Of a DNA stretch of 44,464 nt, positions 39,502-41,980 are shown piece after piece. The notes beneath the pieces were generated by a model. That model saw only the letters and a program-made list of their open reading frames with translations, searched no databases and was not told the origin of the DNA. The translations under genes and the position numbers were made by a program. Each line of letters opens with the position of its first letter. Positions within the stretch are counted from its first letter, which is position 1. The stretch lies in the IMG/VR virus record IMGVR_UViG_3300027339_000581, positions 1-44,464 of that record. One strand, written 5' to 3'. The DNA is from a virus.

Positions 39502-39927
39502 ATGGCCGTCATCCGCGTCTTCGTCCTGGCCCATGCCGACGCGCGCCGCCGCGCCGCCGAGTTCCTGCGGACCTGCATGGACGGCCTGGTCGTCACCTTC
39601 AAGGAGGCGAACAGGACCACCGGCCAGAACGCCGTGCAGTGGCCCATCCTCGAAGCGTTCGCCGAGCAGCTGAAGTGGCCCGTCAACGGCTCGCTGGTGC
39701 GCATGACCGCCGAGGAATGGAAAGACGTGCTGTCGGCCGCCTTCCGCGGCGAGTCCGTGCGGCTTGCCCAGGGCCTAGACGGCGGTGTGGTGATGCTGGG
39801 CATGCGCACGTCGGAGATGAGCAAGAAGCAGTTTTCCGAGTGGCTGGAGTTCCTGCAGGCCGTCGCCGCCGAGCGCGGCGTCGTGCTGCGCAGGGAGCCT
39901 GCCGAGACCAATGAGGTGTCCGCATGA
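39502..39927 (+). CDS. ninB: NinB-like recombination mediator, 141 aa
   Basis: NinB family: VFKEANRTTGQNAVQWPILEAFAEQLKWPVNGSLVRMTAEEWKDVLSAAFRGESVRLAQGLDGGVVMLGMRTSEMSKKQFSEWLEFLQAVAAERGVVL is the complete domain. NinB (Orf) proteins load recombinases on SSB-covered DNA in lambdoid phages. ATG 39502 is five bases after the ParB-like stop; its own stop shares ATGA with the next small gene. It is part of the recombination cassette. Confidence 0.93.
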   Translation: MAVIRVFVLAHADARRRAAEFLRTCMDGLVVTFKEANRTTGQNAVQWPILEAFAEQLKWPVNGSLVRMTAEEWKDVLSAAFRGESVRLAQGLDGGVVMLGMRTSEMSKKQFSEWLEFLQAVAAERGVVLRREPAETNEVSA

Positions 39928-40091
39928 TCGTCCCCCGCGATTCCGTCCGCGCCGCCGTGGCGCGCGCCCTGCTGCTGTCCCCGGGCGACACCGAGGCCGC
40001 GATCCTGGCGGCGGCCCAGGCCCTGGGGCTGCCGGTGGAGGCGGTTCGGGAGGTGGTCGAGGCTGCGGAGGGCGTGCAGTGCGCTTCTTGA
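39924..40091 (+). CDS. Small hypothetical protein, 55 aa
   Basis: ATG 39924 (MIVPRDSVRAAVARALLLSPGDTEAAILAAAQALGLPVEAVREVVE) overlaps the NinB stop by four bases and ends thirteen bases into the methyltransferase gene. It is compact and all-helical, possibly a tiny HTH. Chained overlaps on both sides make it credible although it is below usual size limits. Confidence 0.6.
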   Translation: MIVPRDSVRAAVARALLLSPGDTEAAILAAAQALGLPVEAVREVVEAAEGVQCAS

Positions 40092-41980
40092 GCGTCTGCA
40101 GCGGCATTGAGGCTGCATCTGTCGCCTGGGGGCCGCTCGGCTGGCGGGCCTGGGCGTTCGCCGAGATCGAGGCATTTCCAAGCGCCGTCCTTGCCCACCA
40201 CTACCCCAACACGCCCAACCTTGGCGACATGACCGCTTTCAAGGACTGGCCCGATGCAACTGTCGATCTTCTCTGTGGAGGAACCCCCTGTCAGTCATTC
40301 AGTGCAGCAGGACTCCGCGCAGGACTGGATGACCCGCGTGGCCAGCTCATGCTCACCTTTGGTGCCATTGCTGCAAGGTATCGGCCCCGCTGGCTGGTTT
40401 GGGAGAACGTCCCCGGCGTCCTGTCAAGCAACGGAGGACGGGACTTTGGTTCCTTCCTCGGGCTCTTGGGCCACCTCGGGTATGGGTTCGCCTACCGCGT
40501 TCTGGACGCTCAGTTTGTGCGAGTGGACGGCTACGGGCGCGCCGTCCCACAGCGACGGCAGCGTGTGTTCGTTGTCGGATGTCTTGGAGACTGGCGCAGT
40601 GCCGCAGCGGTACTTCTTGAGCGCGAAAGCCTGCGCGGGGATCCTGCGCCGCGCCGAAGCGCGGGGGCGCGCGTTGCCGCCTGCCTTACTCGCGGCGCTG
40701 AAAGCAGTGGCCGAGGCGGGTATGCCGGGCGACGGCAAGAGGACGACGTGAACATCGTTGCCGCCTACGGCGGGAACAACACCAGCGGCCCGCGTGACGT
40801 AGCCTCGGCGCTCTCGGCGCTCTCGGCGCACGGTGGCGCCTGTGGCCGGATGGACTTCGAGACGGAGACGTTCGTCGCCCACACCCTGCGCGGCGAAGGC
40901 TTTGACGCCGGCGAGGACGGCACAGGGCGCGGGACGCCGCTGGTGCCGGTCGGGGTGGATGGCTACAACGGCCTCTTGACGGGTGACGTGGCCTGCACGA
41001 TGGGCACGCGAGGCAGCAGCGAGACGGCCAGCGGTCCGACGCTGTTGGTGCCTTTTGACACCACCCAGATCACCAGCGCCAACAACTACAGCAGCCCGAA
41101 GGCCGGCGACCCCTGCCACCCACTGGCCGCAGGGGCGCATGCGCCGGCCGTGGCCTTCGGATGGCAGAACGCGGCAGCGCAAGGCATGCCGGTGGACACG
41201 ATCAGCCCGACGCTGGACAAGAGCAAGCATCCGGCAGCCCTTTGTGATACCTTGCAGCCCTTAGGAATCACACAAGGAATCAGCCATGCCCGCCCCCAAG
41301 AAACCCACGCCGCTGCGCTTCTGCGAACACTGCGGAACGAAGTTGGAGAGGAAGCGTTTGCCCAATGGGGACTTGGAATACTTGGTTCACTTCAATCGCC
41401 GGAAGTACTGCGATCAGGTCTGCATGGGGCGCGCATTCGACCAGCGGCATTCAGCAGAAGTTGGGTGGTCCACTGCGCACTATCACGCTCGCAAGATGGT
41501 TCCGATTGGCTGCTGCAGTCGCTGCGCGAAGCCGGATGCCAGCGATGTGCATCACAAGGATGGCAACCACCTGAACAACTCGCCCGACAACTTGGAGCGT
41601 ATCTGTCGGAGCTGTCACAACCTGGCGCACAACCGCAAAGGTTCATGCGTGATTTGTGGCTTGCCGCAGAAGGGGCTGGGCTACTGCGCGAAGCACTATC
41701 AGCGGTTCAAGAAGTGGGGCGACCCATTGGCCGTCAAGCAGAACCAGCACAGCGAGGTGCAGCGGTCAGACGACTGACCCCCTGGGAATGTGAGTTTTTG
41801 CAGGGATTTCCGCGCGGCTACACCGCAATCCCCTGGCGCGGCAAGCCGGCCAGCGAGTGCCCTGACGGCCCGCGCTACAAGGCGCTCGGAAACTCCTGGG
41901 CGGTGAACTGCGCCCGCTGGATCGGGCGACGGATCAGCCTGGTGGAAAGCATCCACCGCAACCAACGAGAGGCAGCATGA
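40079..41980 (+). CDS. C5-cytosine DNA methyltransferase with two nested out-of-frame genes, 633 aa
   Basis: Start set at GTG 40079 with GGAGG upstream. Canonical Dcm motifs are present: I SVCSGIEAASVAWG (5-18), IV GGTPCQSFS with catalytic Cys71, VI WENVPG (108-113), VIII PQRRQRVFVVG (157-167) and C-terminal motifs IX/X in LTPWECEFLQGFPRGYT and ALGNSWAV. Between motifs VIII and IX is a long variable region, within which two other genes are read in another frame (40254-40751, 41286-41777). The frame stays open throughout. It could protect phage DNA from host restriction. Third-position G+C drops in the overlapped parts. Confidence 0.92.
   Translation: MRFLSVCSGIEAASVAWGPLGWRAWAFAEIEAFPSAVLAHHYPNTPNLGDMTAFKDWPDATVDLLCGGTPCQSFSAAGLRAGLDDPRGQLMLTFGAIAARYRPRWLVWENVPGVLSSNGGRDFGSFLGLLGHLGYGFAYRVLDAQFVRVDGYGRAVPQRRQRVFVVGCLGDWRSAAAVLLERESLRGDPAPRRSAGARVAACLTRGAESSGRGGYAGRRQEDDVNIVAAYGGNNTSGPRDVASALSALSAHGGACGRMDFETETFVAHTLRGEGFDAGEDGTGRGTPLVPVGVDGYNGLLTGDVACTMGTRGSSETASGPTLLVPFDTTQITSANNYSSPKAGDPCHPLAAGAHAPAVAFGWQNAAAQGMPVDTISPTLDKSKHPAALCDTLQPLGITQGISHARPQETHAAALLRTLRNEVGEEAFAQWGLGILGSLQSPEVLRSGLHGARIRPAAFSRSWVVHCALSRSQDGSDWLLQSLREAGCQRCASQGWQPPEQLARQLGAYLSELSQPGAQPQRFMRDLWLAAEGAGLLREALSAVQEVGRPIGRQAEPAQRGAAVRRLTPWECEFLQGFPRGYTAIPWRGKPASECPDGPRYKALGNSWAVNCARWIGRRISLVESIHRNQREAA
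40254..40751 (+). CDS. Overlapping protein encoded out of frame inside the methyltransferase, 165 aa
   Basis: An ATG-started frame fully inside the methyltransferase catalytic region: MQLSIFSVEEPPVSHSV, DWMTRVASSCSPLVPLLQGIGPAGWFGRTSPASCQATEDG, SGMGSP and a C-terminal block DVLETGAVPQRYFLSAKACAGILRRAEARGRALPPALLAAL. To my recollection, this last block recurs in proteins from other phages, which would make it a conserved overprinted gene. The stop shares GTGA with a GTG in the methyltransferase frame preceded by AGAGGA. Function unknown. The alternative is a fortuitous open frame in GC-rich DNA; conserved homologues would decide. Confidence 0.62.
   Translation: MQLSIFSVEEPPVSHSVQQDSAQDWMTRVASSCSPLVPLLQGIGPAGWFGRTSPASCQATEDGTLVPSSGSWATSGMGSPTAFWTLSLCEWTATGAPSHSDGSVCSLSDVLETGAVPQRYFLSAKACAGILRRAEARGRALPPALLAALKAVAEAGMPGDGKRTT
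41286..41777 (+). CDS. HNH endonuclease nested out of frame in the methyltransferase, 163 aa
   Basis: ATG 41286 follows AAGGA with seven-base spacing. The protein has zinc knuckles CEHC...CDQVC (13-46), CSRC...CRSC (77-110) around the HNH core DVHHKDGNHLNNSPDNLERICRSCHN (87-112), and a third pair CVICG...C..H (121-137) before YQRFKKWGDP. This is a complete homing-type HNH protein. Its third codon positions are mostly G/C, whereas the methyltransferase frame here uses many A/T-ending codons, so HNH appears the primary frame. It lies between the variable region and motif IX of the methyltransferase, as an insertion that kept both frames open. Confidence 0.85.
   Translation: MPAPKKPTPLRFCEHCGTKLERKRLPNGDLEYLVHFNRRKYCDQVCMGRAFDQRHSAEVGWSTAHYHARKMVPIGCCSRCAKPDASDVHHKDGNHLNNSPDNLERICRSCHNLAHNRKGSCVICGLPQKGLGYCAKHYQRFKKWGDPLAVKQNQHSEVQRSDD

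Follow-up and report, generated by a model that had tools for sequence, protein, structure and literature searches.

A viral HNH endonuclease gene nested out of frame within a C5-cytosine methyltransferase gene, a probable homing element at motif IX

We analyzed a virus record of 44,464 nucleotides (IMG/VR record IMGVR_UViG_3300027339_000581; hereafter, the window) and found an HNH endonuclease ORF at 41286-41777 that lies wholly within the ORF of a C5-cytosine DNA methyltransferase (MTase) and is read in frame +1 relative to it. The HNH ORF belongs to an insert that is absent from closely related MTase genes, and the MTase frame runs through this insert free of stop codons. Sequence comparisons suggest that the insert is probably a self-contained homing element of C5 MTases, with motif IX of the MTase as its target and with carriers made immune by an altered motif. 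The features of the window discussed below are as follows.

40079..41980, + strand: C5-cytosine DNA methyltransferase, 633 aa with the insert (PF00145, E=6e-38; phrog_116, E=9e-79)
41237..41761, + strand: insertion element, 525 nt = 175 codons, in frame with the MTase; empty alleles in L125 and L128
41237..41285, + strand: leader of the element with the ribosome-binding site, absent from empty alleles
41274..41278, + strand: Shine-Dalgarno sequence AAGGA, 7 nt before the HNH ATG
41286..41777, + strand: HNH endonuclease gene, 163 aa, ATG start, frame +1 (AlphaFold2 pLDDT 88)
41514..41636, + strand: HNH catalytic zinc domain, residues 77-117, matched by PF01844
41762..41777, + strand: 3′ end of the HNH ORF contributed by the host (codons A-V-R-R-L-T of MTase motif IX)
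41765..41812, + strand: altered MTase motif IX, VRRLTPWECEFLQGFP in place of RRLTPxECERLQGFP; putative nuclease target
41888..41905, + strand: MTase motif X (GNSWAV), with G604 invariant and N605 near-invariant in the alignment

The MTase gene is situated at the right end of the record. Its ORF spans 39911-41980 from an ATG at 39911, and the GTG at 40079 is the likely start, as it fits the start of the family. Motifs I, PCQ (IV), ENV (VI), QRRxR (VIII), IX, and X were all found in this single open frame. An earlier reading made from the sequence alone (the sequence-only reading) had described a complete HNH gene, with three zinc knuckles, a full HNH core, and its own AAGGA ribosome-binding site, placed out of frame in an unbroken MTase gene; the stop-free MTase ORF and the conserved residues of the nuclease confirmed this description. 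Two of the three zinc sites are invariant (C13/C16-C42/C46 and C77/C80-C107/C110) and the other is near-invariant (C121/C124-C134/H137). The HNH core consists of H89 H90 ... N102 ... H111, and the residues C77, C80, H89, H90, N102, C107, C110, and H111 of the domain were invariant in the family alignment. The best PHROG match of the protein was phrog_1271, an HNH endonuclease family (E=1e-12), and its matches to PF13392 and PF01844 fell slightly under the Pfam gathering cut-offs. A Foldseek comparison of the HNH model with the PDB returned no significant solved homologue, and in a sequence search of solved structures, an IscB variant and DotN/IcmJ were the only matches, both weak.

We also observed a second nested ORF in the catalytic half of the MTase gene, in another frame (40254-40751, + strand; MQLSIFSVEEPP...SLSDVLETGAVPQRYFLSAKACAGILRRAEARGRALPP). 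Among about 235 related MTase loci, 185 kept this stretch of about 160 codons open, against an expectation of 1.5-2.2 stops from shuffled MTase codons. It had no Pfam match and a weak match to phrog_16143. It is possibly another overlapping gene, and conservation of the MTase itself may account for part of its openness.

The boundaries of the insert were defined by comparison with the empty alleles L125 and L128. Both match the window up to 41236, and L128 resumes at 41762, reading DKSKHPA-TATA-AVRRLMPVECERLQG where the window reads DKSKHPA-(175 residues)-AVRRLTPWECEFLQG. According to this alignment, the insert covers 41237-41761, that is, 525 nt and a multiple of three, which corrects the range of 41271-41777 given in the sequence-only reading; the lower G+C content noted there was borne out, at 0.580 in the insert (41240-41763) vs 0.674 in the preceding part of the MTase. 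These empty-site relatives, the nearest MTases in IMG/VR, share 92% and 88% identity with the window over the catalytic part. The insert is located at the end of the variable region of the MTase, immediately before motif IX, and contains the HNH ORF, a leader of 49 nt, and little else. A Shine-Dalgarno-like sequence was present upstream of the HNH gene in most nested loci. Host sequence supplies the final 16 nt of the HNH ORF, including its stop: the stop codon TGA is made of the end of CTG and the first base of ACC (CTGACC) in the Leu-Thr codons of motif IX. The HNH stop falls at this offset of 7 nt into RRLT/RKLT in about two thirds of the listed nested loci, and the HNH C-termini of the remaining loci are longer or shorter.

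Scans of IMG/VR, named phages, and GTDB genomes identified 39 non-redundant nested HNH homologues, most of them on metagenomic contigs. Nearly all close HNH homologues found were nested in C5 MTases, and every host gene put to Pfam matched PF00145. The N-terminal identity of these host MTases fell to about 36%, and their variable regions differed. The nested loci ranged from 33% GC in Staphylococcus phage CUB-EPI_14 to 70% in the window, and were found in phages and in contigs of Dokdonella, Peptococcaceae, Virgibacillus, Treponema, Akkermansia, and Eubacterium. Relatives were detected at the protein level; at the DNA level, the insert had no match among named phages. In the record of the Staphylococcus phage (ON325435.2, 37788-38270), only the methyltransferase is annotated. 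More distant HNH relatives, with 33-37% identity, were observed in other C5 MTases (L033, L034, L035, and L085 from Komagataeibacter phage phiKX1); in at least three of these, the HNH lies immediately before motif X (YGNAIVPQV), and the frame relation is as in the window. In L027, a second, different HNH sequence was present farther upstream within the MTase gene region (about 2263-2720). One sub-group of MTases (L095, L103, L024, and L027) showed frame changes near G runs, attributable to phase variation or sequencing error.

The MTase frame was without a stop across the HNH gene in 38 of the 39 nested loci, and the third frame was open in none. The exception was phiKX1, in which a stop occurred only near the end of the HNH, where the MTase itself ends. 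As a null model, we kept the HNH protein and shuffled its own synonymous codons. In the window, a mean of 4.8 MTase-frame stops was expected under this model (P(none)=0.002), and P was ≤0.007 in each of 31 relatives tried, in line with the earlier suggestion that the open second frame is unlikely by chance. Between 4 and 12 stops were expected across the genes tested, and 31 of 32 had none; at the 33% GC Staphylococcus phage locus, 11 were expected and 0 observed.

We then asked which of the two frames carries protein-level constraint. Under a null model that keeps the MTase frame open, the excess BLOSUM score per site in four identity bins was 0.28, 0.30, 0.44, and 1.04 for the MTase frame vs 0.29, 0.22, 0.35, and 0.76 for the third-frame control, while for the HNH frame the excess over its own null was 1.9-3.0. 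We accordingly rejected selection at the protein level on the MTase frame of the insert, as its apparent excess mostly reflects stop avoidance and is close to that of the control. The dN/dS ratios were about 0.07 for the HNH and 1.7 for the MTase frame in the pair L021/L023, and about 0.12 and 1.3 in L011/L019; a third pair, L006/L009, was too close to be informative. In the two informative pairs, the per-frame substitution count advised by the sequence-only reading showed constraint on the HNH and none on the MTase frame. Because of the BLOSUM and dN/dS results, we interpret selection as acting on the nuclease, with the MTase frame within the insert merely kept open. The AlphaFold model of the MTase agrees with this interpretation, with a confident core before and after the insert (pLDDT about 80-95) and values below 50 in the insert. 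The same three results speak against the idea that the insert is a useful addition to the target-recognition region.

The distribution of the HNH gene suggests that it is mobile between MTase alleles. It was found in none of the 80 MTases nearest to that of the window, and among 155 further MTase loci retrieved with two other, divergent carriers, it was found only on the query's own contig. In an MTase tree of 21 carriers and 76 empty alleles, the window branched among the empties and HNH presence changed 12 times, at least 8 of which were forced by supported branches, with long branches leaving some individual placements unsure. The empty sites, the patchy spread, the stop avoidance at 33-70% GC, and the lack of an Rfam intron match all favor the earlier view of a homing-type gene that enters the MTase without breaking its frame.

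When we examined motif IX, directly downstream of the insert, an intact ECERLQG was found in 0 of 33 HNH carriers vs 208 of 221 empty alleles, as scored on the protein rather than on a measured recognition site. The longer form RRLTPxECERLQG was present in 76 of 82 and 132 of 139 empties in two sets. Carriers had EFLQGFPRG (the window and most of its clade), EIL, ELL, EAL, ETL, EAER, ETER, or LMG, and other carriers had an insertion immediately before ECERLQG. In phylogenetically independent pairs, the HNH and an altered motif IX occurred together in about 8.4 of 9, with 0 in the opposite direction (p=0.004). The association with carriage is thus observed directly, and under its simplest reading, the nuclease would target the motif IX stretch and carriers would be immune through the altered motif. 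As the main alternative, the changes could compensate structurally for the insert. We also considered whether the flank is co-converted with the HNH. An initial signal (p=1.6e-10) proved to be biased by the choice of empty alleles, and at matched N-terminal identity, carrier pairs were no more alike downstream than carrier/empty pairs. Since the downstream flank shows no sign of travelling with the element, immunity by co-conversion is unsupported, and the motif IX changes seem to arise separately from insertion of the element. In the carrier L105 (about 637-700), we observed an in-frame insertion, RRLTPR-SFR-ECERLQG, at the presumed target and at the same position as the stop-containing insertions described next.

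The sequence-only reading had taken the MTase frame to be unbroken, and in relatives this held for the insert itself and failed just downstream of the HNH in some carriers, where a single stop lies within motif IX (L021-L023, L026, L027, L029, and L097). Interruption of the MTase frame at the same place in relatives, which that reading had named as contrary evidence, was thereby found in part. Here, motif IX reads CCN CTY TAG/TGA/TAA CTT GAG, with one stop between near-identical leucine codons. The stop-bearing sites seen in sequence are as follows.

L021, 3629-3680, and L023, same positions: stop-bearing motif IX
L027, 3494-3540: stop-bearing motif IX
L029, 704-750: stop-bearing motif IX
L097, near 4177 (reverse strand): stop-bearing motif IX
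L026, 2686-2705: stop-bearing motif IX
L095, 10961-10985: stop-bearing motif IX, HNH absent, other frame breaks
L103, 9004-9030: stop-bearing motif IX, HNH absent, other frame breaks

All three stop codons are used among these loci, and a wider pattern search for such sites found none beyond them. A hop from CTY to CTT would restore RRLTPLECERLQG exactly in carriers such as L021-L023, L027, L029, and L097; the gap varies to TAAC in L026 (4 nt, frame also restored) and TGAGGA in L103. In the codons downstream of the stop, dS was saturated and dN was about 0.2-0.3, suggestive of purifying selection. We regard these sites as candidate in-frame stop hops or as scars of nuclease attack. If motif IX, which is universally conserved in C5 MTases, is what the nuclease cuts, an invaded gene must disable the target yet keep the enzyme, and an in-frame stop hop might be one solution, a proposal that we make tentatively and consider rather doubtful. 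According to a 2016 review, no natural in-frame stop hopping was known (PMC5009743). The bypass of T4 gene 60 (PMC5009743) is similar in that a short insert is tied to protection from a homing nuclease, which parallels the stop-containing motif IX inserts of some carriers; it differs in its gap of 50 nt with GGA codons, compared with 3-6 nt and CTY/CTT here, and the window has no such gap.

We propose the following course of events. The element of 525 nt (175 codons) would enter a phage C5 MTase gene in frame, just upstream of motif IX, bringing its own ribosome-binding site and start codon, and the HNH would be read in frame +1 and take its stop from the Leu-Thr codons of the host. With the host frame kept stop-free, ribosomes could also read the insert as a passive 175-residue spacer, so that both products would be made. 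The HNH protein probably cuts uninvaded MTase DNA at the motif IX sequence encoding ECERLQG, repair from the invaded copy would spread the element, and invaded alleles would escape cutting through substitutions in motif IX or short insertions directly before ECERLQG.

Three other explanations were weighed against this proposal. In a nested restriction-modification pair, the HNH could be the restriction enzyme that cuts the sequence methylated by the MTase, with nesting keeping both together. The confinement of nearly all close HNH homologues to C5 MTases would fit such a pair, as would the presence of PacI, an HNH restriction enzyme, among the weak Foldseek matches of the HNH model. However, the HNH appears and disappears repeatedly on the MTase tree and is missing from most close MTases, the diversity of the host N-termini and variable regions makes a shared methylation specificity unlikely, and such a pair would not account for the carriers having lost an intact motif IX; we consider this explanation improbable. 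A self-splicing intron or intein with an HNH gene is far less probable still. HNH genes are common in group I introns and insertion directly before a conserved motif is typical of such elements, but Rfam gave no match in the window or eight relatives, no domain of the Hint/intein type was detected by Pfam in the translated MTase, 38 of the 39 loci keep the MTase frame open across the insert, and the insert has little room besides the HNH ORF and its leader.

It is likewise unlikely that the insert is a domesticated or decaying passenger, with the HNH translated for another phage function, the MTase inactive, and the open frame a leftover. The unconstrained MTase-frame residues of the insert, its disorder in the AlphaFold model, and the motif IX stop of some carriers are all compatible with such a passenger. 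Against it, the host frame stays clear of stops even in AT-rich genomes, in which a frame out of use would soon acquire them, and the MTase core is conserved and confidently modeled on both sides of the insert. The homing element remains our preferred explanation.

Our results suggest that out-of-frame nested homing genes are a widespread lifestyle in phages and prophages of several phyla rather than a mycobacteriophage oddity, and that a simple rule may govern life as a gene within a gene: the host frame is kept without stops and the stop codon is borrowed from the host. They also point to a specific candidate target of the nuclease, open to testing with cloned alleles. Such nested genes are missed by standard annotation, as in the Staphylococcus phage record.

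Free-standing phage HNH homing endonucleases spread selfishly by cutting neighboring host sequence, and the resident allele is protected by sequence differences. They are encoded in intergenic regions or introns rather than within an uninterrupted coding frame. Intronless homing in T4-like phages is treated in PMC2988022. The present element would resemble these systems in its selfish spread and sequence-based protection, and differs in the position of its HNH within an intact coding frame. The concept of an out-of-frame nested HNH was published in February 2025 for the ShiLan domain in a mycobacteriophage methylase, according to the text of Arsenault 2025 (PMC11855218); the domain is also described in Gosselin 2023 (PMC9957025). 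Our element is of this kind, having a nested HNH, an open host frame, empty sites, and no intron or intein signature. Both systems comprise an out-of-frame zinc-finger HNH in a phage DNA methylase with a patchy distribution. It is not a ShiLan domain proper, which would entail close homology, the same host methylase, and the same frame: the ShiLan host is an amino-methyltransferase (DPPYG motif) and ours a C5 enzyme, the ShiLan HNH is read in frame +2 from a GTG without a ribosome-binding site and ours in frame +1 with a recognizable one, and the two HNH proteins are remotely similar (about 26% identity, E=2e-4, hhalign probability 67%). Target avoidance is not reported for ShiLan in the text of PMC11855218, whereas motif IX is altered in our carriers. 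A second case in that text, the hidden HNH of Pacc40 gp60, is likewise an HNH-like ORF (frame +2) in an unbroken gene, a methylase/helicase, and differs in its unrelated HNH family (phrog_374; no profile match), host enzyme, and frame. Given the remote similarity to ShiLan, its different host and frame, and the unrelated Pacc40 HNH, we interpret the present family as an independent and much more widespread variant of ShiLan-type nesting. Within the open-licence PMC literature, it extends the text of PMC11855218 by its breadth, a formal test of stop avoidance, the recurrent borrowed stop, and the association with motif IX.
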